From a virus, in the IMG/VR virus record IMGVR_UViG_3300030118_002095, positions 1 to 26,135 of that record: a stretch of 26,135 bases of DNA; one strand, written 5' to 3'. The position numbers were made by a program, and so were the translations under genes. Of the stretch, positions 8,374-19,469 are shown piece by piece (within the stretch, counting starts at the first letter, position 1; each line of letters begins with the position of its first letter). The notes under the pieces were generated by a model. That model was not told the DNA's origin and searched no databases. It was given only the letters and a program-made list of their open reading frames with translations.

Positions 8374-8628
8374 CTATTTACCCATTGTCATCCACACTGC
8401 ACCTGCAATAAACGTCAGCAGACCGACAGTGGATAATTTAACTACTGTTGACCAGATAGATCTTCGTGTATCTCGCCAAGCTTCTAATAAACTACGCATC
8501 TCTACAATGTCTTTTATAGCATCATCATCAAGCAAACCAATAGAACGCAATGCCTCTTTAGCACCACGTCTAGCTGCACGATCCATCATATCTTCTAATT
8601 CTTCTGTGGTAAGTTTAATGTCTGCCAT
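8374..8628 (-). CDS. DUF6127-like small membrane protein, possible holin
   Basis: An 84-aa protein with a charged helical N-terminal part (about residues 6-55, including RRGAKEALRSIGLLDDDA and RSLLEAWRDTRRS) and a single C-terminal membrane segment at about 62-82 (VVKLSTVGLLTFIAGAVWM). This layout and these motifs resemble the DUF6127 family, known from alphaproteobacteria and their phages; the family call is from memory of its consensus. Size, one membrane helix and a short Lys tail would also fit a holin-like lysis or envelope protein. The start ATG lies inside hldD (34-base overlap) with no good Shine-Dalgarno, so translation may be coupled to hldD. Function is not established. Confidence 0.6.
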   Translation of the reverse strand: MADIKLTTEELEDMMDRAARRGAKEALRSIGLLDDDAIKDIVEMRSLLEAWRDTRRSIWSTVVKLSTVGLLTFIAGAVWMTMGK

Positions 8629-9380
8629 AATTTAACTGTGTCTGCCCTAGTAAAATCTTGATAGCTGTTCTTTAATTTCTCTGGCATCTCTATCCACTCG
8701 ATAGTTGCCCCTGTTTCTTTACATATCTCTAAAGCAACTTCATAAAAACTTTTTTCTATTCCTGTACCTACGTTCCAGACACCTGACTTTTCTATAGAGA
8801 AAAACTTTTGATGATACTCTATAATCTTGTCTACGTGTATAAAGTCTCTGTAAAAATATTCTGAGTTTTTGAATAGTTTTATCTTTCCAGTTTCTTTTGC
8901 TTGCTTTCTAAATTTAGTATAAGGACTTGCCTGTTCTCCTTTATGATCTTCGTGATCACCGTAGACGTTAAAGTATCTGAATACTTGAGTTATGATAGGA
9001 GCTTTTCTGTACTTGATATACTCCTCAACTATAGCTTTACTTCTAGCATAGTGATTCAAGGGATCTAAAACTGCAGTCTCTTTAAAACCGCATGGGTCTA
9101 AACCATAAACTGAAGCAGAACTAGCAAACTGAAAGTTTATTCCTCTATCTATACAATCCTCAAAGAGATAAATAGAAGACTCAATGTTCTGTACAGTTAT
9201 CTTACGTATGTCTTGTTCTGTAGTAGAACTCACTGCTCCTAAGTGTATTACCCAATCAAGATTATCTAGTATTGGGTATTGATTACCCCATTCGTAAGTA
9301 GAAACTTCATGATTATCTTTTAGTGCATTGACCATGTTCTGACCAATGAACCCTTTGTGACCAGTAACTAGTATTTTCAT
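8595..9380 (-). CDS. hldD: ADP-L-glycero-D-manno-heptose 6-epimerase (HldD)
   Basis: A 261-aa short-chain dehydrogenase-fold epimerase that converts ADP-D-glycero- to ADP-L-glycero-D-manno-heptose in the cytoplasm. The NAD(P) loop GHKGFIG is at residues 7-13. Ser at about 88-89 and the YxxxK pair Y111/K115 are the usual catalytic residues. AVSSTTEQD (49-57), FRYFNVYGDHEDHKG (134-148), FYRDF (176-180) and KLKNSYQDFTRAD (235-247) match E. coli HldD block by block. That includes the Lys (here K147) corresponding to the second catalytic base of HldD, which general sugar epimerases lack. It is about 50 residues shorter than E. coli HldD, mostly at the C-terminus and around the N-terminal domain. 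The start overlaps the cupin stop by 4 bases (ATGA). It completes the heptose-nucleotide pathway encoded by the neighbours. Confidence 0.9.
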   Translation of the reverse strand: MKILVTGHKGFIGQNMVNALKDNHEVSTYEWGNQYPILDNLDWVIHLGAVSSTTEQDIRKITVQNIESSIYLFEDCIDRGINFQFASSASVYGLDPCGFKETAVLDPLNHYARSKAIVEEYIKYRKAPIITQVFRYFNVYGDHEDHKGEQASPYTKFRKQAKETGKIKLFKNSEYFYRDFIHVDKIIEYHQKFFSIEKSGVWNVGTGIEKSFYEVALEICKETGATIEWIEMPEKLKNSYQDFTRADTVKLWQTLNLPQKN

Positions 9381-9733
9381 TCTTGGCTGTCACCCTTGCC
9401 TACTCTGTAATTATCTTCTACAGAATCAGGAGTAGAGACTTCCATTAGATTTCCCTCTTCTAAGCAAACTACTTGATGGGGAACTAGTGGTGGATTGTGC
9501 CAAACATCTCCTTCTAACAAAGAGACTTCTTTACGTTCTGCGTTTTCTGTGTCAATCCATATGACTTTAAATTTACCTGATATAACAAACCAAGTCTCAT
9601 CTTTTTCTTTGTGGAAGTGCATTGAAAACTTTGCACCTTTGTTAAACTTTAAAAATTTACCACAATACTTGTCGTTAGTTGCCCATATAAACTCAGACCC
9701 CCAACCTTTTTCTACAAGTCCTTCAAGCCTCAT
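9377..9733 (-). CDS. Single-domain cupin, sugar-phosphate isomerase type
   Basis: A 118-aa one-domain cupin. The metal site is recognisable: H39 and H41 (MHFHKEKDETW), with E46, form the first cupin motif, and H86 (VPHQVV) belongs to the second after a GDVWHNPP turn. The opening EKGWGSEFIWATND and the layout resemble the C-terminal cupin of type II mannose-6-phosphate isomerases and small cupins that phages carry in sugar clusters. It overlaps the kinase stop and the hldD start by 4 bases each, so it belongs to the heptose operon. Its reaction is not clear: sugar-phosphate isomerase or epimerase are possibilities. Nothing shows that it replaces the missing GmhA. Confidence 0.75.
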   Translation of the reverse strand: MRLEGLVEKGWGSEFIWATNDKYCGKFLKFNKGAKFSMHFHKEKDETWFVISGKFKVIWIDTENAERKEVSLLEGDVWHNPPLVPHQVVCLEEGNLMEVSTPDSVEDNYRVGKGDSQE

Positions 9734-10491
9734 CTAGTTATTTCCTTTAGTGTTGGAGCATAGACACCTATATGTTGCACCGTAACTGCTGCTGCACTCA
9801 TTGCAAATCTTATAGCCTCATCTATACTTTGTTTTTCTAAATACTTATAGACAAGGGCAGCTAGAAAGGTGTCACCTGCACCACACACATCATGAGTTTC
9901 TACTTTCGGAGGAATGTAGGTTCTGTTTTTATATTCGACTTTCTTTGAGCCGTATGTAACTATAAGTTCTTCGGTATCTGACTCTCGTGCTTCGTATTCG
10001 TACTGGTTTATTTTTACAAAGCAACCGTCAAATTGGGCTAGATCTTTTTTCTTAGTGTCTACAAAGATAGGACCTTTGTATTTTTTTATAAGATCTTCTA
10101 TTTCGTTGTCAGAAACAAATCCTTTATTGTAGTCCGAAACTATTACTGCTGCGTAATTATCTAAGGTTTGTTCTGCATTATCAAAGAATTGTTTCTTTAT
10201 CTTTTCGTCTATTCTGATAAGTTGTTGACCTGTTTTAATATCAACGTATCTATGCTTACGTTCAGAATACTCTGTTATAATATCTACTTTAAGTTTTAGA
10301 TTTACTAGATTGTTATGTACGTTATATGCCATCCCTTTCTTTGAGACAGTATCATGTAAATCAAATATAGGAACAGGAGCTTCAGGACTAATTCTATTTA
10401 CAAAGCCATAGTGATATTCATCGTAGCAACTATCTCCTATCAACAAAACTTTTAAGGATTTTTGTGCTTGATTCTTCGTTGACTCTTTCAT
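9730..10491 (-). CDS. hldA: D-glycero-beta-D-manno-heptose-7-phosphate kinase, compact (HldA / HldE N-domain)
   Basis: A 253-aa PfkB/ribokinase-family sugar kinase matching the N-terminal domain of HldE, which phosphorylates heptose-7-phosphate at C1. IGDSCYDEYHYG (18-29), RISPEAPVP (33-41), GQQLIRID (88-95), VSDYNKG (118-124) and DVCGAGDT (201-208, catalytic D207) align with HldE. It is about 65 residues shorter than the E. coli kinase domain. Two gaps explain this: about 30 residues after DIITEYS, and about 20 after the NQYEYEA segment that corresponds to NLSEFEA. The substrate-site GG is changed to KGMAYN. The ATG at 10491 has AAAGAGG nine bases upstream but overlaps the previous gene by 62 bases. 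The kinase is separate from the nucleotidyltransferase, as in HldA/HldC systems. Confidence 0.85.
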   Translation of the reverse strand: MKESTKNQAQKSLKVLLIGDSCYDEYHYGFVNRISPEAPVPIFDLHDTVSKKGMAYNVHNNLVNLKLKVDIITEYSERKHRYVDIKTGQQLIRIDEKIKKQFFDNAEQTLDNYAAVIVSDYNKGFVSDNEIEDLIKKYKGPIFVDTKKKDLAQFDGCFVKINQYEYEARESDTEELIVTYGSKKVEYKNRTYIPPKVETHDVCGAGDTFLAALVYKYLEKQSIDEAIRFAMSAAAVTVQHIGVYAPTLKEITR

Positions 10492-10831
10492 AGAAGACTA
10501 CCTCTTTACAGTACTCCTCCCCTATAATTTCTTTTCCCCTCCAATCAGAACCTTTTACCATTACATCTGGTTTGTACCTTTGAAGAATAGCAAGAAGATC
10601 GTTGTCTGTGTCAAACGTTACTACACTAGTAACAGGTTTTAACATAGCTATTAATTGTTTTCGATTCTTAAGATTATTAAAAGGTCTTCCTTTCCCCTTG
10701 TTATACTCAATACGCCTGTCTGTGTCAATAGCTACGAGGAGGTGAGTTCCTAAACCTCTAGCAAAATCAAGTAGATCAAGGTGTCCTGAATGCACTACAT
10801 CAAATGCTCCATTGACAAATATCTTCTTCAT
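10430..10831 (-). CDS. hldC: Heptose-1-phosphate nucleotidyltransferase (HldC / HldE C-domain)
   Basis: A 133-aa nucleotidyltransferase-alpha/beta-phosphodiesterase-fold enzyme with GAFDVVHSGH at residues 8-17 (the HxGH nucleotide site, H14/H17), GRPFNNLKNR (48-57), KPDVMVKGSDW (87-97) and the C-terminal ESSTKI (120-125). These match the adenylyltransferase domain of HldE, which joins heptose-1-phosphate and ATP to ADP-heptose. The frame is open to an ATG at 10864, but that start lies inside the divergent gmhB gene. The ATG at 10831 begins exactly where the fold does (MKKIFVNGAFD) and is used here. It heads the minus-strand heptose operon hldC-hldA-cupin-hldD. Only a weak GGTG precedes the start. 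Related cytidylyltransferases (TagD type) share the motif, but the heptose neighbours decide the call. Confidence 0.85.
   Translation of the reverse strand: MKKIFVNGAFDVVHSGHLDLLDFARGLGTHLLVAIDTDRRIEYNKGKGRPFNNLKNRKQLIAMLKPVTSVVTFDTDNDLLAILQRYKPDVMVKGSDWRGKEIIGEEYCKEVVFYERVNEESSTKILKSFVDRR
10501..10507 (-). promoter_or_regulatory. Ribosome binding site of the heptose kinase gene
   Basis: AAAGAGG on the minus strand sits nine bases before the ATG at 10491, inside hldC coding sequence. It supports this start despite the 62-base overlap between the two genes. Confidence 0.6.
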
Positions 10832-10840
10832 AATTAAAAT
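10812..10840 (+). promoter_or_regulatory. Sigma70-like promoter for gmhB, predicted leaderless start
   Basis: TTGACA (10812-10817), a 17-base spacer and TAAAAT (10835-10840) give a perfect -35 and a five-of-six -10. The normal +1 would be seven bases after the -10, which is the A of the gmhB ATG at 10847. The -35 lies inside the first codons of the divergent hldC gene. Confidence 0.6.
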
Positions 10841-10846
10841 TACACC

Positions 10847-11491
10847 ATGTCTAGATTTAAGCACATATTAGAACAAGACCCTCAACAGATTCAACAACAA
10901 AATATACCTAATGATTGGCCTAAAGTATTTCCTAAGTCAATTGTTGGTCTGGATCGAGATGGTGTAATCAATATAAACAAAGGTTATATTTCTAATCCTG
11001 ACGATTGGGAAGCTATCCCTGGTTCTCTTGAAGCTATTCGTATGATTAGGCTTAAAGGATATAAACTAGTTATACTAACTAATCAGGGTGGTATTATAAA
11101 AAAGGAGCAGACGCATGACCAAGTAGAAGCTGTTCATCAACGTATGATGGAAGTCTTTGGTAATGCAGGTATCTACTCCATTGATGGTCTATTCTACTCT
11201 GAGTCTTCACTTAAGTGTGACTGCTTTGCTAAACCTAATATAGGTATGTTTCACAGAGCAGAAAAAGAATTATTTTTAGGTAAACATAGATTTAAACAAA
11301 ATGGTTTCTATGTTGGTGACAAGATGACAGATCTTAAAGCTGCAGAACGTATAGGTGCTAAACCTATTCTTGTACGTACTGGTCATGGATTAGAAACTGA
11401 AGAAGACCTCAAGAAATTCTCAAGAGAGAAACTTAGAAAGAAGACCAAAGTTTTTGATGATCTTCTTCAGTTTGCTCAGAGGTTGCCTTAA
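10847..11491 (+). CDS. gmhB: D-glycero-D-manno-heptose-1,7-bisphosphate 7-phosphatase (GmhB-like)
   Basis: A 214-aa HAD-family phosphatase, the only plus-strand gene in the window. LDRDGVIN (35-42) gives the nucleophile D36 and acid/base D38. TNQGG (78-82), the Lys of FAKPNIGM (K129) and GDKMTDLKAA (157-166) complete the HAD motifs. The order and spacing match GmhB/HisB-N phosphatases. It would remove the 7-phosphate made redundant by the HldA step. Two differences from E. coli GmhB stand out: an extra 25 or so N-terminal residues rich in Gln, and a shortened zinc loop that keeps CDC (C124/C126) but lacks the usual upstream Cys-His pair. No Shine-Dalgarno precedes the ATG; a strong promoter ends seven bases before it. 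Its stop codon interlocks with the carbamoyltransferase stop through a shared TTAA. Confidence 0.85.
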   Translation: MSRFKHILEQDPQQIQQQNIPNDWPKVFPKSIVGLDRDGVININKGYISNPDDWEAIPGSLEAIRMIRLKGYKLVILTNQGGIIKKEQTHDQVEAVHQRMMEVFGNAGIYSIDGLFYSESSLKCDCFAKPNIGMFHRAEKELFLGKHRFKQNGFYVGDKMTDLKAAERIGAKPILVRTGHGLETEEDLKKFSREKLRKKTKVFDDLLQFAQRLP

Positions 11492-13200
11492 GCAGCTTCC
11501 TCCATATCCTCAACAATACTATCATTATAAGGATAATGTACTAACTTACCCATGTCTGGTAAGTATAAATAGTTTATGTCTGAGTTCTTCACAGTCAACA
11601 TGGCATCTTGCAAAGTCTCAACTAGAGGTTGACCTGCAAGATTAAAGCTTGTGTTGAACAAGATAGGAACACCTGTAATTTTATCAAACTCTTTTATTAA
11701 AGAATAGTAACTAGGATTCTGTTCTTTAGTTACAGTCTGAATGCGACATGTACCATCTACGTGTGTGATTGCAGGAACTTCACCATGCTTTTCAGTTTTA
11801 AAGTCCATAGCATACATCATATATGGTGACTCTTCTAGGCCACGAGTTTCAAACCACTCTTCAAAGTTTTCCTGTAGCATTGAACCTGCAAAAGGTCTGA
11901 ACCACTCTCTCCCTTTTACTGTGTTTACAAATTCTTTACCCTTGGGATCTGTGGGATCATACAGTATAGAACGATTACCTAGTGCTCGTGGTCCTGCTTC
12001 AGAACGTCCTTGAAACAAAGCTACAATGTTTTTATCTGCTATCAGTTTTGCTACATCAGCAGCTTTTACATCTTTAACTTTTATACTACTAAAGTCGTAT
12101 TCTTCTTTACGTTCAGGACCAAGATAAAGAGTAGTCATAGGACGTATAGTTTTATCTTCTTTGTTTTTATCGTAGTAAATTATTTTAGCTAACCCTATTG
12201 CTGTACCACCATCGTGAGATATAGGATCAACAAAGATATTGAGATCAGGAAATCTTTCTTTGTAGTAATAGTTGGCTACACAATTAAGACCATAACCACC
12301 TGATATAACAATGTTTTTATGCCCTGTTTTATCTACAGCTTTTTCAATTAAGTCACCTACAAGAGTTTGTGTCTCATCTTGTACAGCCCAAGCTAAGTCT
12401 TTTGCTGCATCTGTTACCTTTGTGTGGTCACTATGCCAAGCTTTAGGATCTTCTTTTAGTTCTAGGAGAGGATGACGTGAATGATCCACGTAAGCACCTG
12501 CAGGGTAATTAGGTATAAACACATTTTTGTTACCTCTGCCATTATAGAATAGGCTAGGTATAAACTCGTTTTCTTTTCCATAAGGGGCAAGACCCATAGT
12601 TTTACCTGCTTCTATGTAACCAAAACCAAGATAGTGTGAAACAGCTTCATATGCTTTAACTATTGTTATAGCACTATCCATTTCTAATTCTTCATTTACT
12701 ATACGTTGGGTATCATAGTTACCACCATAAGAGGTAAATATAGGTTTTATTCCCTCTTCATAGTCACAGTTAAAGATAGACTCTGTTTCAAAACCTAAGT
12801 TCTTAAACTCTTCATTAACTTCTATTTGTCTATGAGAACCAGACCCATCTACAATAACTGCTGCAGCCTGTTCAAAACCTGAGTTGTAAAAAGCACCTGC
12901 TGCATGACCTAAATGATGAGCACCACCAACATTTATTGTTTCTAGTTTAGGGTTAAACTTACGTAAGAAACCAGAGTAAGGATCTTCTCCTGTCCAAGGT
13001 AACTGTGGAAATTGTTCTGAAGTACCACCAAGAACTAGAATGTCTACACCATACTTTAGTGCTTCTACCATTCCTGCAAAAGGATTACCATCATACTTAC
13101 TACGAGAAAGTCTTTCTTCCTCTATGTAAAACTTTAATTCACCATCTACTAATAGAGCAGCAGAACCATTATGCCCTGGATTAATTGCTAAAATATTCAT
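11488..13200 (-). CDS. O-carbamoyltransferase, NodU/CmcH/TobZ family
   Basis: A 570-aa two-domain enzyme of full family length. The N-terminal ASKHA-fold domain begins NILAINPGHNGSAALL and carries the metal-binding GAHHLGHAAGAFY (H95, H96, H99) and VIVDGSGS (116-122). AGKTMGLAPYG (198-208) and SGGYGLNCVANYYY (300-313) follow. The C-terminal domain has GRSEAGPRALGNRSI (398-412), REWFRPFAGS (431-440), HVDGTCRIQTV (480-490) and FNTSFN (515-520). Such enzymes move a carbamoyl group from carbamoyl phosphate, through carbamoyl-AMP, to a sugar hydroxyl. Next to GT9 and ADP-heptose genes the likely acceptor is a heptose, as with the Pseudomonas inner-core carbamoyltransferase WapO; the acceptor is inference. 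The start shares one base with the GT9 stop (TAATG), so the two are translationally coupled. Confidence 0.9.
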   Translation of the reverse strand: MNILAINPGHNGSAALLVDGELKFYIEEERLSRSKYDGNPFAGMVEALKYGVDILVLGGTSEQFPQLPWTGEDPYSGFLRKFNPKLETINVGGAHHLGHAAGAFYNSGFEQAAAVIVDGSGSHRQIEVNEEFKNLGFETESIFNCDYEEGIKPIFTSYGGNYDTQRIVNEELEMDSAITIVKAYEAVSHYLGFGYIEAGKTMGLAPYGKENEFIPSLFYNGRGNKNVFIPNYPAGAYVDHSRHPLLELKEDPKAWHSDHTKVTDAAKDLAWAVQDETQTLVGDLIEKAVDKTGHKNIVISGGYGLNCVANYYYKERFPDLNIFVDPISHDGGTAIGLAKIIYYDKNKEDKTIRPMTTLYLGPERKEEYDFSSIKVKDVKAADVAKLIADKNIVALFQGRSEAGPRALGNRSILYDPTDPKGKEFVNTVKGREWFRPFAGSMLQENFEEWFETRGLEESPYMMYAMDFKTEKHGEVPAITHVDGTCRIQTVTKEQNPSYYSLIKEFDKITGVPILFNTSFNLAGQPLVETLQDAMLTVKNSDINYLYLPDMGKLVHYPYNDSIVEDMEEAA

Positions 13201-14126
13201 TACTTCACCTTCTTTTCAATATCTTTGACAATGTTGTTATACATTGCATTTATTTCTTCGTCACTAAAGTCCATTAAGGTGTCGTTAGCTCTATCAGCTA
13301 AATGACTCTCAAGACCTGAGATACGAATAGGTGAGTATTTTTTAGCATCCTTCTTTTCAATAATGTTAAAGTAGTCTGGGTACGTTGTGTTAACTGCAAA
13401 CGTAGAACCAATAATTACTGTTCCAGGAGTTCCTAGTGCTCTAGCCATGTGTTGACCTGCTGAGTCCACACCAATGAAGTAATCTGCTGAACCTATAAAC
13501 GCAGCCCACATTCGTAAATCTGCCTGTGGTTTTACAGTATAGGTGTCCTCTGGCATATGAAAGTCTGGTTCAGCCATAAGAACCAAGTTGTATTTTACAC
13601 TTAATTTTTTAATTAGTTTTAAATACGACTGAGGATCAAGAGAACGAGAAGATTCATCAACAATAACACCAGTAGGGTGTTTCTGTGCAGAACGACCAAA
13701 GGGTTGTAGTACAATATTCTTTTGTTTCTTTTGTTCGTTCTTTGCATCTAAGAACATACCTGCTGCGTTAATCTCTTCCATCTTAGAAGTTTTAAGTACA
13801 GGTAAACCTAGATCAGAATGATCATGGGTGTTATTAATTAGAACATCAAAGGCTTCAGCTAAAGATTTTTCTTGTTTAAAATATCCCGGCACTCGATATG
13901 GTTCAGGGGATATAAGTTCTTCAGCATCTTTTACTACATGTTCAAAAATACCTTTTTGTTCAGGATTAAATACTTTGTCTTGTAATTCAGGAATACCCCA
14001 ATATAAAGTATCCCATCCATGCACTAGTATACCAAAATCATCATGTTTTTTTGCATACTTTAGGAAAGCAGGTATAGATGCAATGGCACGACCTGCGCCC
14101 CCATCAATAAAAAATAGTTTTTTCAC
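13200..14126 (-). CDS. Glycosyltransferase family 9 (heptosyltransferase-like)
   Basis: A 308-aa GT-B-fold protein. The N-terminal half starts KKLFFIDGGAGRAIASIPA, the position where GT9 enzymes have their acceptor-side Gly-rich loop. The C-terminal half contains QPFGRSAQKHP (141-151) and ADYFIGVDSAGQHMARALGTP (214-234), the GT9 signature with D221 and H226, where the ADP-heptose phosphates are bound. WaaC/WaaF-type relatives add heptose to the lipopolysaccharide inner core. No cysteine is visible, so the iron-finger of autotransporter heptosyltransferases is absent. The start is a GTG with a purine-rich AGAAAGAAGA upstream. A strong sigma70-like promoter lies just before it, and the carbamoyltransferase follows with a 1-base overlap. 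The acceptor cannot be read from the sequence. Confidence 0.8.
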   Translation of the reverse strand: MKKLFFIDGGAGRAIASIPAFLKYAKKHDDFGILVHGWDTLYWGIPELQDKVFNPEQKGIFEHVVKDAEELISPEPYRVPGYFKQEKSLAEAFDVLINNTHDHSDLGLPVLKTSKMEEINAAGMFLDAKNEQKKQKNIVLQPFGRSAQKHPTGVIVDESSRSLDPQSYLKLIKKLSVKYNLVLMAEPDFHMPEDTYTVKPQADLRMWAAFIGSADYFIGVDSAGQHMARALGTPGTVIIGSTFAVNTTYPDYFNIIEKKDAKKYSPIRISGLESHLADRANDTLMDFSDEEINAMYNNIVKDIEKKVK

Positions 14127-14172: not shown

Positions 14173-14201
14173 ATTATAGTATAGTGTTAAACTAAACTCA
14201 A
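14173..14201 (-). promoter_or_regulatory. Sigma70-like promoter ahead of the GT9-carbamoyltransferase pair
   Basis: On the minus strand TTGAGT (14201-14196), a 17-base spacer and a consensus TATAAT (14178-14173) are followed by a leader of about 40 bases to the GTG at 14126. The -35 overlaps the stop codon of the tail-fibre chaperone gene. This is the largest gap in the fibre-to-glycan region (14127-14197), which fits a real promoter. Confidence 0.65.
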
Positions 14202-14566
14202 GAGGGTTGTGTAGGCCATTCTACAGTAAGAGGATTAGCAGAATCATCTGGAAGATCTCTTAACAAAACTCTGTAAGCTTTCCATTCTTTTATCTTTTCT
14301 TCTGTTAAACCTACATCAGCTAGTTGTGTCCAATCTGAGTCAAGTAAGTAAGCATTCCTAGTTTCTCTAATCTTACTCCACTCAGCTGCTCTTCTTTCTT
14401 CAAACACCACAAAGTCTGTAATATCAAAAACTGGATTGCTGTCGGCATCACGCCTTACAATTGAAGCTCCTTCGTAAACTTCTTCAAGGTCTTCAGCCTG
14501 AACTACTTCATCAGCATCATTAAAGTTATCAACAACTCGTCCATCTCTTATTCCTACAGCTTTCAT
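14198..14566 (-). CDS. Tail-fibre assembly chaperone (Phage_tail_APC-like)
   Basis: A 122-aa acidic protein. The C-terminal half, WSKIRETRNAYLLDSDWTQL (residues 74-93) followed by KAYRVLLRDLPDD and a closing VEWPTQPS, matches the consensus of phage tail assembly chaperones (RN-LL--SDW ... YRQ-LRD ... WP--P). The N-terminal half has no known motif (KAVGIRDGRVVDNFND). Such proteins are encoded directly after the fibre they help to fold or trimerise and are not usually part of the finished virion. Here it follows the 903-aa cysteine-rich gene by 11 bases with an AAAGGAAA ribosome binding site, so that protein is its probable client. Confidence 0.78.
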   Translation of the reverse strand: MKAVGIRDGRVVDNFNDADEVVQAEDLEEVYEGASIVRRDADSNPVFDITDFVVFEERRAAEWSKIRETRNAYLLDSDWTQLADVGLTEEKIKEWKAYRVLLRDLPDDSANPLTVEWPTQPS

Positions 14567-14577
14567 TTTAATTTCCT

Positions 14578-17289
14578 TTATCTACATGCATCATAAAAAG
14601 CATATGATTTTAATTGTCTTTCAGAGCCAGAAGATTGACATGTAATTATAGAAAAATTGTCTTGATCTATACAAGCACCTTTTATTAGGTTACACACAAA
14701 AGTATCTTCTAACCTATACACAGTGTCAGTTTTAAATTTATAAACGTTAGTAGGGCTGTCATATTCCCATTTAAAAAGTGCTAGAGAAGAATTAAATCCT
14801 CCACAAGGATGACTGTGACTCATTGCAAAACCAGTTGTAGGAGAAGTTAACTGAAAAGGGTAAAAGTTTTGATGACAAAAACATTTACTGTCGTTAACTG
14901 TAACGCAGAAACAGCAACCATCTCTTATACATATATTATTACAATGTTTTATACAGTAGTTAGAATCTCTACATATTTTTGCTAAACCTATTTTATAAGC
15001 ATTATTCTGAATAGAGCCTTGTATAAAGTGTTCATTACAACAATCTATCCATTGTAGATCACAAAAACCACAGCTACAATCTGATGAACCATGACTTAAA
15101 CCCCATCCTTTTCCATCACAGGTGTGTGCTCCACCAACCACACAAAAAGTAAATCCAAACAAATTATTTACTACGTCAACTCTTGCAGTTTGTCCAGATG
15201 TTCCTGGGGTAAATTGTAATACTGCAGCCCTGTTATCAGGATTACCATTTCCTCCTGGATACACTTCATAAGCTGTAGAACAACATGAAGGGTTAGCATG
15301 CCAACAACAAGCATCTACATAACAACATTGAAGTCTTCCCATAGCTGTTCCACAGCCACACATATAGTTCCATCGTGCAGTTGATCCATCTCTACATCTG
15401 GGGTAGAAGATACAGAAACCACATTCATCGCAACGATAGGCTATATTCATACCAGAGAAATAACCTGAACTCTCTCCACAGCTTGAAAATATAGCATTAA
15501 AATAATGCACACAGTTAGGTCTAGTTGATTTACCTGTGCTTGAATCAACACAATTATAAAACATAGAATTACATAATCTAATGTAACCATTTTCTCTATT
15601 ACTTGTACTACCTATATTTTGACCATACTGTTGGTGTGCAAACATCTTTTGATGATTATTCCACAAATCACATTGAGCAGCACCACAGTGTTGTGATGAC
15701 GTACAGCAAATTCCAGTGCATTGAGTACAAGCACAAGGAGAAGTTCCCCAACAAAGATGTATAAGTTCTCCACTACAGTTAGGTCTAAAAAATGGAGCAC
15801 AATTATTTTGGTTTCTTTGTACATATAAAAAACAATCATGCACAAGAGCAAAAGCCATTGAGTTATCTGAACTATTAGATTCAAAATTTTTACATTGTTT
15901 TGAGAAAGAAGTACAAATATACTCAGAACAAAATGCAGAACCTGTATACTGAACTATTTTTGCAAAAAATGCTTCATCGTTGTTACCATTACAGTACCTG
16001 TATTGATATATAAACCTACAAGGATCTCCTGCAAAATGGAGTGTGCCTGATCGACAAGGTACAGTAAAAGAAGCAAGTTTACGACAGCTATTACTACTAC
16101 CTGATAGGTAAGGAGCCATGTGCTGACCATTAAGGTTTGTTCCATTTAACGCACAAGGATTAAAAGCAGAAAAATGTTTAAAACCTGTCACTAAATGACA
16201 AGGAACATAAATCCAAACACACTCAGATTTTATACAATGATCACTACCATTATTTACAGTAGCCCCATTCATCCATTTTATAGAAGTAATCCTACATGTT
16301 TTTGTACCAAAAAAGTGATGGTAATGTCGTGTTAGCTCAAAAACAGGACCAATTCTTTGTGAGTTAACACCATTACTTAACTCATTACTTATAGTATCAG
16401 TAACTTCACATAGGCAAGTTATTGCACCTGTTACAGCACATATGTGCATTAGCCTTAATTTTTGACAGGCGTTTTCTCCAACTTTAGGAAGCATAGTAGC
16501 AAAGGTACTAAGGCAGTCAGTAGCATAACCATAAGTATTACTATTTCTATTACATAAACAAGAGGTGCACCAAGTTGAATCGTCTTCACAATATATACAT
16601 GCTGTACCTGTACAAGATATTCCTACGTGCTGACCAGTGCAAAGAAAACCTACTGCGCCCCCATGATAAAAAGATGTAAATGATCTGATATCTAAACTTG
16701 TTTCACCTGTAACACAACACTTTTGTACTGCCATAGGCTCGTAAGATTTTGATGTTGTATTGTACTTAGCAATTCCAGTAAAGACACAGTTACCTTTAAC
16801 AGCAAAAAAGTATTGACCTAAATCAGAGTCACCATGGCCTTTACATGTTAAATATGTAGCTTCAGTTGCAACTTGATCCATATCAGCCCTAGTAAATCCA
16901 GTAGGAAATGAATAGTTAGAATCTATAGCTAAATTTTCTAGGTTGGTTAAAGGTTTTTGAAAAGTCCAACCACCTTGGGCTGTTGAGTTATCATGTAAAG
17001 AAATTTGAATTGATTCAAAAGGTTTTATAAAATTATATAAATTACAACAGTGATCATGTAAAAGAACAGAGTTATTTGTGCTAAGATTTTTAATAGTATA
17101 AAGAGCAGAACCTTCGTCAAGTGTTGTAGCATTAGGTAAACAAACACAACCTGTTTGGTTAAAACATAAGGATAAGCTACTTGAGTTATCTGACGTAAGA
17201 CTAATTGTAGATCCATTACAAGTAATAGTCTCACCACCACTGGTTGCTCCACCGCCACTACTACCTGCAAATGTTGAATATGTACTCAT
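14578..17289 (-). CDS. Very cysteine-rich tail-fibre/appendage protein, 903 aa
   Basis: A 903-aa protein with about 82 cysteines by hand count (roughly 9%), many as CC, CxC or CxxC (CTSCLCN, CGFC, CDECGFC, CACTQCTGICC). Residues 20-115 resemble a beta-rich fibre module (SLCFNQTGCVCLPNATTLDEG ... GGWTFQKP), with Cys in strand positions where related modules usually have small or aliphatic residues. The rest is beta-prone with many Gly, Asn, Ser, Thr, His and aromatic residues, and repeated short blade-like units are suspected. No signal peptide, membrane helix or enzyme motif is seen. It has a good ribosome binding site (AAAGAGGAAA), follows a fibre-like gene and precedes the assembly chaperone, so it is probably the receptor-side tail fibre. 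Whether the Cys form disulfides or bind metal cannot be told from sequence. Confidence 0.7.
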   Translation of the reverse strand: MSTYSTFAGSSGGGATSGGETITCNGSTISLTSDNSSSLSLCFNQTGCVCLPNATTLDEGSALYTIKNLSTNNSVLLHDHCCNLYNFIKPFESIQISLHDNSTAQGGWTFQKPLTNLENLAIDSNYSFPTGFTRADMDQVATEATYLTCKGHGDSDLGQYFFAVKGNCVFTGIAKYNTTSKSYEPMAVQKCCVTGETSLDIRSFTSFYHGGAVGFLCTGQHVGISCTGTACIYCEDDSTWCTSCLCNRNSNTYGYATDCLSTFATMLPKVGENACQKLRLMHICAVTGAITCLCEVTDTISNELSNGVNSQRIGPVFELTRHYHHFFGTKTCRITSIKWMNGATVNNGSDHCIKSECVWIYVPCHLVTGFKHFSAFNPCALNGTNLNGQHMAPYLSGSSNSCRKLASFTVPCRSGTLHFAGDPCRFIYQYRYCNGNNDEAFFAKIVQYTGSAFCSEYICTSFSKQCKNFESNSSDNSMAFALVHDCFLYVQRNQNNCAPFFRPNCSGELIHLCWGTSPCACTQCTGICCTSSQHCGAAQCDLWNNHQKMFAHQQYGQNIGSTSNRENGYIRLCNSMFYNCVDSSTGKSTRPNCVHYFNAIFSSCGESSGYFSGMNIAYRCDECGFCIFYPRCRDGSTARWNYMCGCGTAMGRLQCCYVDACCWHANPSCCSTAYEVYPGGNGNPDNRAAVLQFTPGTSGQTARVDVVNNLFGFTFCVVGGAHTCDGKGWGLSHGSSDCSCGFCDLQWIDCCNEHFIQGSIQNNAYKIGLAKICRDSNYCIKHCNNICIRDGCCFCVTVNDSKCFCHQNFYPFQLTSPTTGFAMSHSHPCGGFNSSLALFKWEYDSPTNVYKFKTDTVYRLEDTFVCNLIKGACIDQDNFSIITCQSSGSERQLKSYAFYDACR

Positions 17290-17879: not shown

Positions 17880-19469
17880 CTAAATAAAACAACAGTTGTG
17901 ACAAGCAAATGGTTCTAGCTTGTACAAATCAACTATTATACATTGACTAGAAACACCTGAAAAAGCATTTACACCTACTTCAACATAATGATCTGTTCCA
18001 ATTACACCACCTGCTCTATATTTGTTTTTACAAGTACGTAGACCACCCTGCATTTGTCGAGTATAGTAATAAGGGTAGATATACTTTGCCCCACCTCTTT
18101 CTATGTCTGCTTTAGAGCAATTATGGCTAGGACCAAGAGCAACTAGTACGTCACCTTGATTGTTAAACCAGTTATTCTTATTTCCACTATTTGAGTTTAC
18201 TCTGTAAATACCATTAACTTGTAAACTGTAGCTTCCATTTTCATTTGTTGTCGTGTTTAAATCACCATCTCTATCACAAGTCGTTGCAGAGTTAAATGTA
18301 CCACTAAAACAATTAGAACAAACTACTTCGTTTCTACCCACACCTAAAGAGCAATAACCAAAATTTGGACCAAGAAAACCTGCATGTATTTCTACTTGTC
18401 TGTGACCACTACATCCCTGTGAGGAACTATGACTACAGTGACAAGCCATTTGTTGTGCATAACCACTAAATCCCATAGGAGCAACAACTTGACCTTTAGG
18501 TGGTAACTCTGCAAAGTATGTAAAACCACAACAATCTATATAGCCCTGATTCCAATCAACAAAAACACTAGTCTTACATCCAAGATTATGACAACATTGG
18601 TGATTAGTATTACTACAATGACAGACTAAATTTGGTTCGTTAGCTGCTGCAGTTAATACATTAAAAACATCTCTCCTCATCCCATAGACTCTTCCACAAT
18701 CTCCACCACCTGTTGATCCTTCACCTATCATTTGCACAGTACAGGCTGTTACTTGAGGCATATAGAAAAATTGTTTTATATTCTGAGATCCTTGAGGAGC
18801 AAAGGCATTATAATTAGTACCACATTGACAACAACGTTCTTTTATTTTTGTAAACTGCATACACCCACAGTCTCGTTGAAAAAAGTACCAATTATGGCCT
18901 GGAGTTCCTGTATACATTAAATGATGTCTACACTCTCCTACACTTTCTAAACATTTAAATTCACTAGAGTCAGTAAATTGAACCCTGTTAGTACAAAAAC
19001 AACCTGTGTCTGCATCGTAATGAAAAGCACTCATACAGTTGTTGCTGCCACCTCTTCCTGCCATAAGAATATTATCACACTCATCACTTGTAATAACTTC
19101 TATATTTAGATAATTACCACTACAACTTGTACAATTCCAAACATTGTGGTGACAACAACTGTGTCTGTGTACTGTGTGATTCGTTGTGTCAATACAGTAA
19201 ACACCTATATTAATACAGCAAAGGTTAGCATCCTCCCAATCATGTACAACAGCAAACCTGTTATTTCCCATGTCAACTACATGAGACTCACCTACTTGAT
19301 TGTCATTGTTATAAACGTTACCAACACAATCACAAAGAGTGTTACAAAGATTATACTGTAGATTTGTCCAAGGATAAGGAGCTAGTACACCCCAAGCAGT
19401 TCTGTTTGGATCTGCTACTGCTGTAGTTCCACCAGAACTAGTAGGAGTAGGAAAGACTGTAATACCCAT
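17880..19469 (-). CDS. Cysteine- and histidine-rich fibre-region protein, 529 aa
   Basis: A 529-aa protein with about 43 cysteines by hand count (8%) and many His, often together: HRHSCCHHNVWNCTSCSGN, VCHCSNTNHQCCHNLGC and MACHCSHSSSQGCSGH. The first 40 residues (VFPTPTSSGGTTAVADP) are Cys-free and could be a tail-attachment segment. The remainder is beta-prone, with recurring SHVV, RFAVVHD and YLNIEV strands suggestive of a propeller or solenoid. The C-terminus ends ACHNCCFI. No enzyme motif or signal peptide is visible. Its start shares one base with the 116-aa gene's stop (TAATG). It probably forms a second fibre or tip protein related in composition, though not clearly in sequence, to the 903-aa protein. 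Confidence 0.65.
   Translation of the reverse strand: MGITVFPTPTSSGGTTAVADPNRTAWGVLAPYPWTNLQYNLCNTLCDCVGNVYNNDNQVGESHVVDMGNNRFAVVHDWEDANLCCINIGVYCIDTTNHTVHRHSCCHHNVWNCTSCSGNYLNIEVITSDECDNILMAGRGGSNNCMSAFHYDADTGCFCTNRVQFTDSSEFKCLESVGECRHHLMYTGTPGHNWYFFQRDCGCMQFTKIKERCCQCGTNYNAFAPQGSQNIKQFFYMPQVTACTVQMIGEGSTGGGDCGRVYGMRRDVFNVLTAAANEPNLVCHCSNTNHQCCHNLGCKTSVFVDWNQGYIDCCGFTYFAELPPKGQVVAPMGFSGYAQQMACHCSHSSSQGCSGHRQVEIHAGFLGPNFGYCSLGVGRNEVVCSNCFSGTFNSATTCDRDGDLNTTTNENGSYSLQVNGIYRVNSNSGNKNNWFNNQGDVLVALGPSHNCSKADIERGGAKYIYPYYYTRQMQGGLRTCKNKYRAGGVIGTDHYVEVGVNAFSGVSSQCIIVDLYKLEPFACHNCCFI

Follow-up and report, generated by a model that had tools for sequence, protein, structure and literature searches.

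The late tail region of the marine virus record IMGVR_UViG_3300030118_002095, a 26.5-kb IMG/VR fragment of which we analyzed positions 1 to 26,135 (the window), carries a seven-gene cassette encoding homologs of ADP-heptose synthesis enzymes, a GT9-like transferase, a NodU-type O-carbamoyltransferase and a cupin. We propose, with a probability of about 0.55, that this is a tail-glycosylation cassette, through which the phage makes ADP-heptose, heptosylates its own cysteine-rich tail fibers and adds a carbamoyl group. Computational analysis establishes the gene identities, the ADP-heptosyltransferase fold of the transferase, the linkage to tail genes and, in several phage lineages, an almost perfect match between the presence of the transferase and that of cysteine-rich tail proteins. 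A first-pass annotation had described a heptose island at 8595-14126 (GT9, GmhB, HldC, HldA, HldD, NodU and cupin) inside the late region; the seven densely packed open reading frames, their family and fold matches, and their flanking genes bear this out, and the GT9 assignment, weak in Pfam, is confirmed by fold search. Absent from that annotation were the inversion of the GmhB gene, the lack of GmhA, and two cysteine-rich tail proteins encoded just upstream. The genes concerned are, in window coordinates:

17880..19469, minus strand: cysteine-rich tail protein, 529 aa, 8.1% cysteine, singled out by cysteine content; proposed acceptor
14578..17289, minus strand: cysteine-rich tail protein, 903 aa, 9.1% cysteine, singled out by cysteine content; proposed acceptor
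13200..14126, minus strand: GT9-fold glycosyltransferase (phrog_8954; weak Pfam GT9 match, fold match), predicted protein heptosyltransferase
11488..13200, minus strand: NodU/TobZ-type O-carbamoyltransferase with both domains (PF02543 and PF16861)
10847..11491, plus strand: GmhB-like HAD phosphatase (PRK08942, PDB 4pnh)
10430..10864, minus strand: HldC-like heptose-1-phosphate adenylyltransferase (TIGR02199, phrog_7878); GTG start at 10864, with an ATG start at 10831 likelier
9730..10491, minus strand: HldA-like heptose-7-phosphate kinase, short form of 253 aa (TIGR02198, PDB 4e84)
9377..9733, minus strand: small cupin (PF07883)
8595..9380, minus strand: HldD-like ADP-heptose 6-epimerase, short form (TIGR02197, PDB 1eq2)

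The window phage is an HMO-2011-type podovirus, since its coat protein shares 78% identity with that of Roseobacter phage CRP-9 and 70% with that of HMO-2011; late-gene synteny is seen as well, and the host is probably an alphaproteobacterium. Its two cysteine-rich tail proteins reach 8-9% cysteine against a background median of 0.5%, and neither has a Pfam or PHROG match. No homolog of the 903-aa protein was found in other phage records; the 529-aa protein has two IMG/VR relatives, both in transferase-bearing contigs. A search with a cyanophage cysteine-rich protein hit cyanophages that carry the cassette, one single-cell virus and nothing else.

Comparison within lineages reveals how closely these proteins follow the transferase. 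For the HMO-2011-type phages, the comparison used contigs covering the tail region beside an independent anchor gene, which codes for a 512-aa tail protein. A cysteine-rich tail protein (6.9-11.6% cysteine) is present in 16/16 of these contigs with the transferase and in 0/18 without it (maximum 3.2%), and the anchor-only contigs split in the same way (4 transferase-positive, 15 transferase-negative). On the anchor-gene tree, the state must switch about four times, and well-supported branches force two or more of these switches. The same pattern is found in T4-like cyanophages (5/5 with the transferase versus 0/6 without) and in a further lineage, for which a 249-aa neck protein served as anchor (2/2 versus 0/32), so that the three lineages together give 23/23 versus 0/56; because the compared contigs are related to one another and the transferase-positive ones were partly retrieved by the transferase search, we set the nominal Fisher P values aside. 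In a broader survey of transferase loci with at least 6 kb of upstream sequence, a cysteine-dense segment (at least 6% cysteine over 150 aa) occurs in 61 of 63. By sequence, these cysteine-rich proteins make up about 32 families, and their cysteine richness is therefore not a matter of simple common descent; other proteins encoded in these loci are ordinary in cysteine content. The cysteines are mildly clustered at i+1 and i+2, and a search for a sequon around them returned no strong motif. One further candidate, a "cysteine-rich" open reading frame of Syn9, was rejected because it is the capsid gene read in antisense.

The transferase itself matches Pfam GT9 weakly (E 7.7e-5) and phrog_8954 strongly (E 4.5e-85). 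Its AlphaFold (AF2) model (predicted local distance difference test score, pLDDT, 93.6) adopts a GT-B fold for which TibC is the top PDB match, accompanied by WaaF, the Veillonella GT9 protein 3tov, and WaaC. The D-x4-H donor motif is present in the C-lobe, where D221-x4-H226 aligns with D261/H266 of WaaC. Position 13 differs: it is Asp in WaaC and WaaF and an invariant Arg in 45 phage proteins, the two residues being equated by sequence position and secondary structure only. Asp13 is the catalytic base of WaaC.

The fold match to TibC links the transferase to adhesin glycosylation with a heptose donor, as TibC uses ADP-heptose to glycosylate an autotransporter adhesin on serine (PMC4358343, PDB 4rap/4rb4). 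The likeness to TibC and its relative AAH is one of fold, with about 11% sequence identity, and the TibC side lacks both the carbamoyltransferase partner and the dedicated donor pathway seen in the phage. The acceptors differ too, serines of autotransporters in one case and, as proposed here, a cysteine-rich phage tail protein in the other. In addition, the window transferase contains no cysteine at all, and hence not the four that build the iron finger of bacterial autotransporter heptosyltransferases (BAHT); we therefore suggest that it works like a BAHT without being one.

The transferase family is almost virus-only. A pattern scan recovers it from at least 592 viral contigs, while 84,980 species genomes contain 11 loci, one remote and 10 close, the latter all on metagenome-bin contigs, mostly marine, with phage-like surroundings. 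The gene sits among late tail genes in podoviruses as well as myoviruses. A transferred bacterial lipopolysaccharide (LPS) operon was rejected as an explanation, given the near absence of the family from these species genomes. The bins labeled as bacteria or archaea that carry the phage cassette (L110, L111, L115 and others in the genome contig set), some on very long contigs (335 kb, 153 kb), probably contain mis-binned virus contigs.

The partner of the transferase, the NodU-type enzyme, contains both the N- and the C-terminal domain of its family and matches 7xb6 and TobZ in the PDB. Its pairing with heptose is plausible, since 7-O-carbamoyl-heptose occurs in the LPS core of Pseudomonas (PMC7168646).

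The distribution of the cassette genes indicates which part of it is tied to cysteine. About 19 loci contain the complete set, and HMO-2011-type IMG/VR relatives keep a constant order of tail fiber assembly chaperone, transferase, NodU, inverted GmhB, HldC, HldA, cupin and HldD, an arrangement far beyond chance. The transferase cluster is found in 112 loci and the NodU cluster in 105, with heptose genes in about half of them or fewer. In many loci, such as L057, L066, L078 and L083, transferase and NodU occur with a cysteine-rich tail protein and no nearby heptose genes. Conversely, L212 and L213 pair an HldE-like fusion, a cupin and HldD with a GT2 enzyme, a sulfotransferase and an adenosine phosphosulfate (APS) kinase, with neither a GT9-like enzyme nor a cysteine-rich tail protein (L212 5610-9985 for this donor block), which argues that the heptose donor module is interchangeable. 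L208 has a NodU-like gene and neither transferase nor cysteine-rich tail. From both dissociations we conclude that the transferase is the element tied to cysteine, and that the heptose block is one route of supply.

Other tail-region arrangements were observed among these loci. In L094, L096, L101 and L104 (L101:12731-15353), the position of the heptose block after transferase and NodU is taken by four genes in inverted orientation, two for 2-oxoglutarate/Fe(II) oxygenases and two for proteins of 237 and 243 aa with no assigned function. The tail region of the transferase-NodU loci L062, L066, L075, L083 and L084 includes genes for sulfotransferase, APS kinase, GT4 and FkbM methyltransferase, and the tail glycans there are possibly larger, sulfated or methylated. 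In L208 (5770-9339), a radical S-adenosylmethionine protein is encoded beside the NodU-like gene.

By best match, four of the five enzymes of the ADP-heptose pathway are present and GmhA is absent. The best NCBIfam matches are TIGR02197 for HldD (214 bits), TIGR02198 for HldA (128 bits), TIGR02199 for HldC (103 bits) and PRK08942 for GmhB (137 bits), all under the curated equivalog cut-offs, and a heptose enzyme is the best PDB match for three of the four (HldD with 1eq2, E 5.5e-38; the kinase with 4e84; GmhB with 4pnh, E 5e-22). Alignment of the HldD-like protein with E. coli RfaD extends across almost the entire sequence (hhalign 100%) and shows conservation of both YxxxK residues, Tyr and Lys, and of the Lys in the "HKG" motif, all invariant in its phage relatives. 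In the HldA-like kinase, GAGDT and an N-terminal motif are invariant across 8 viral sequences. The HldC-like protein scores 103 bits with TIGR02199 against 68 bits with the glycerol-3-phosphate cytidylyltransferase model, and its best PDB matches are cytidylyltransferases. The GmhB-like protein retains DRDG; the Cys/His ligands of the zinc loop are absent in most of its relatives, with only CDC in the subclade of the window. Compared with E. coli HldE-GmhB-HldD and WaaC/WaaF, the same chemistry is predicted, with HldD and the C-lobe motif of WaaC/WaaF aligning, and the phage differs in lacking GmhA, in splitting kinase and adenylyltransferase, and in Arg13.

GmhA was found neither in the window nor in four long phage contigs. 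A GmhA hidden under another name was likewise rejected: none was found in those four contigs, and the cyanophage protein annotated as phosphoheptose isomerase (P-SSM2 PSSM2_311, L002:19312-19656, and relatives; 114 aa) begins with a HAD-like DxDGT motif, so that the annotation looks wrong and the protein is probably a phosphatase, its Pfam HAD-like match being weak. On gene content, the window set is thus pathway-like and would stay incomplete unless the cupin or the host fills the GmhA step. The metal-binding motif of the cupin is intact (H41, E46 and H86 invariant, H39 nearly so), and its fold search returns generic cupins, including the phosphomannose isomerase 7zvy (template modeling scores 0.76/0.80) and D-lyxose isomerases, without singling out any isomerase. 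That the cupin replaces GmhA as an aldose-ketose isomerase is a hypothesis only; if true, the opening step of heptose synthesis would gain an unrelated enzyme.

In the scheme we propose, ADP-heptose would be made late in infection by the HldA-like kinase, the GmhB-like phosphatase, the HldC-like adenylyltransferase and the HldD-like epimerase; the isomerization that opens the pathway would be supplied by the host or, hypothetically, by the cupin. The cysteine-rich tail proteins from the genes immediately upstream would then receive heptose through the GT9-fold enzyme, and O-carbamoylation of the sugar would fall to the NodU-like enzyme. Catalysis, the identity of the sugar, the tail protein as acceptor, cysteine as the attachment point and carbamoylation of the heptose are all predicted elements of this scheme. 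The benefit to the phage, by conjecture, could lie in thiol protection in oxic seawater, in stability or in tuned receptor binding. A more specific version, which we put forward tentatively and regard as less likely than not, is that the virus-only GT9-like family comprises S-linked heptosyltransferases that hyperglycosylate cysteine-rich phage tail adhesins. O-carbamoylation would come next, and the cupin would serve as the sedoheptulose-7-phosphate isomerase that frees the donor pathway from the host. The invariant Arg13 in place of the Asp13 of WaaC would fit a thiolate acceptor, which needs no general base.

Several points weigh against tail heptosylation. The support is computational throughout. 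No sequence-level PDB match links the transferase to any solved heptosyltransferase, and the assignment of the donor is model-based, resting on the fold and the C-lobe motif. By analogy, TibC would predict serine, not cysteine, as the modified residue. Many transferase loci are without heptose genes, and their donor may differ or be derived from the host. One well-covered locus, L068, has the transferase and no cysteine-rich protein, and L097 is a doubtful second exception. Finally, the genes could be linked because an adhesin module is exchanged as a unit, with no enzyme-substrate relation, and the fibers could instead be cross-linked by disulfides.

The first-pass annotation had left the target as either the host surface or the virus particle, and we favor the particle. 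Transfer of heptose or carbamoyl-heptose onto host LPS or capsule, blocking superinfection or masking receptors, has precedents: GT9 enzymes are classically LPS core builders, the Pseudomonas core noted above contains carbamoylated heptose, and the corresponding cyanophage genes were named LPS genes (PMC3037559). In the part of the pelagimyophage report drawn on here (PMC7029224), glycosyltransferases likewise lie in a host-recognition cluster, as in the tail region of the window, but they are mostly GT8, are read as modifying host O-chains, and are described there with no link to cysteine-rich proteins. Host-surface modification leaves unexplained why the transferase, and not the heptose genes, tracks cysteine-rich tails in several lineages, and a position among late tail genes would be late for superinfection exclusion. 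The likely hosts would also be expected to offer no ordinary heptose acceptor in their envelope, since their families appear to lack the pathway or LPS heptose. None of 101 genomes of Rhodobacteraceae, the family of one of the bins, passes the HldD, HldC or GmhA cut-offs, which are so strict that not even the phage enzymes reach them and which thus exclude only ordinary versions; the best HldD and HldC matches in that set come from the bin's own phage-cassette contig. In marine Synechococcus, LPS is without heptose and 3-deoxy-D-manno-octulosonic acid (KDO) (PMC4515613). Together with the fold match to TibC, this makes host-surface modification unlikely in our view.

An origin of the linkage in adhesin-module exchange has about the same low standing. 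Here, disulfides would stabilize the fibers, transferase and NodU would have a different target, either a small molecule or some other protein of the virion, and the genes would travel together as a receptor-binding module. Exchange of tail-fiber regions is known, and the clustering of cysteines at i+1 and i+2 would also suit cross-linking or metal binding. However, the cysteine-rich proteins span about 32 families, the lineages share few other genes around the site, and odd cysteine counts are as common as even ones (47 versus 49), which speaks weakly against disulfides of a purely intrachain kind. Tail fibers are moreover assembled in the reducing cytoplasm, which counts against disulfide formation.

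Less probable again is a donor other than ADP-heptose. The substrate of the kinase, nucleotidyltransferase, epimerase and cupin would then be some other sugar phosphate of seven or six carbons, drawn from host central metabolism, and the transferase would use the resulting product. The sub-cut-off scores of all four pathway enzymes, the short kinase and epimerase, the missing zinc site of the GmhB-like protein and the lack of GmhA would all fit such a donor; against it stand the heptose enzymes as best solved matches for HldD, HldA and GmhB, the invariant HldD-specific residues, including the "HKG" Lys, and the co-occurrence of the enzymes as pathway sets. A role in DNA hypermodification or defense was rejected, as the PADLOC anti-phage defense models gave no match and the genes lie in the late tail region.

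The same core is found in the T4-like cyanophages P-SSM2, S-SSM7, S-CAM1, S-CAM3 and Sf-FS3, between tail-fiber genes and gp13 or other structural genes. The clusters of P-SSM2, S-SSM7 and S-CAM1 share gene families and nearly the gene order of the window, and these phages too encode cysteine-rich tail proteins, among them PSSM2_304 and PSSM2_306 of P-SSM2. They differ in filling the phosphatase slot with the 114-aa HAD-like protein, where the window has an inverted GmhB, and in inverting the epimerase gene; the carrier in the window is a podovirus. A genome comparison in 2010 called these genes (T4-GCs 302-308) LPS genes and asked whether they were functional or stuffer DNA (PMC3037559). Since the core cassette has thus been visible in P-SSM2-like cyanophages for years, the earlier description of the island as unusual for a phage was too strong. 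What is new here is the nearly virus-only transferase family, its TibC-like predicted fold and its tie to cysteine-rich tail proteins.

If correct, our reading implies that widespread aquatic phages build receptor-binding proteins of up to 12% cysteine that are capped or decorated with phage-made heptose. It would give the cyanophage "LPS genes" a concrete function and would shift the default interpretation of tail-region glycosyltransferases from host-surface editing to virion modification. We found no description of such virion glycosylation in the open literature searched, which is not proof of novelty.

The surroundings of the cassette and the inverted gene add the following features:

14198..14566, minus strand: tail fiber assembly chaperone, upstream border of the cassette (PF16778, E 1.2e-18)
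10812..10840, plus strand: candidate promoter for the inverted GmhB gene (TTGACA-17-TAAAAT, 11/12)
8374..8628, minus strand: DUF6127 protein of 84 aa, downstream border of the cassette (PF19622)

A 1093-aa late protein follows on the downstream side. In CRP-9 and CRP-1, the equivalent site between the tail genes and the conserved 84-aa DUF6127 gene is without the cassette. The GmhB-like gene, on the plus strand, is the sole inversion relative to all other late genes, and it is inverted throughout the HMO-2011-type loci. A search for RNA structure at its start returned none. The promoter-like box is the best in the stretch, though such boxes are not in excess there (24 versus 22.4 by chance); its -35 box coincides in part with the start codons of HldC, and it recurs in many, not all, homologous loci. 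In other phages (L048, L052, L059), it is the whole donor block or the epimerase gene that is inverted.

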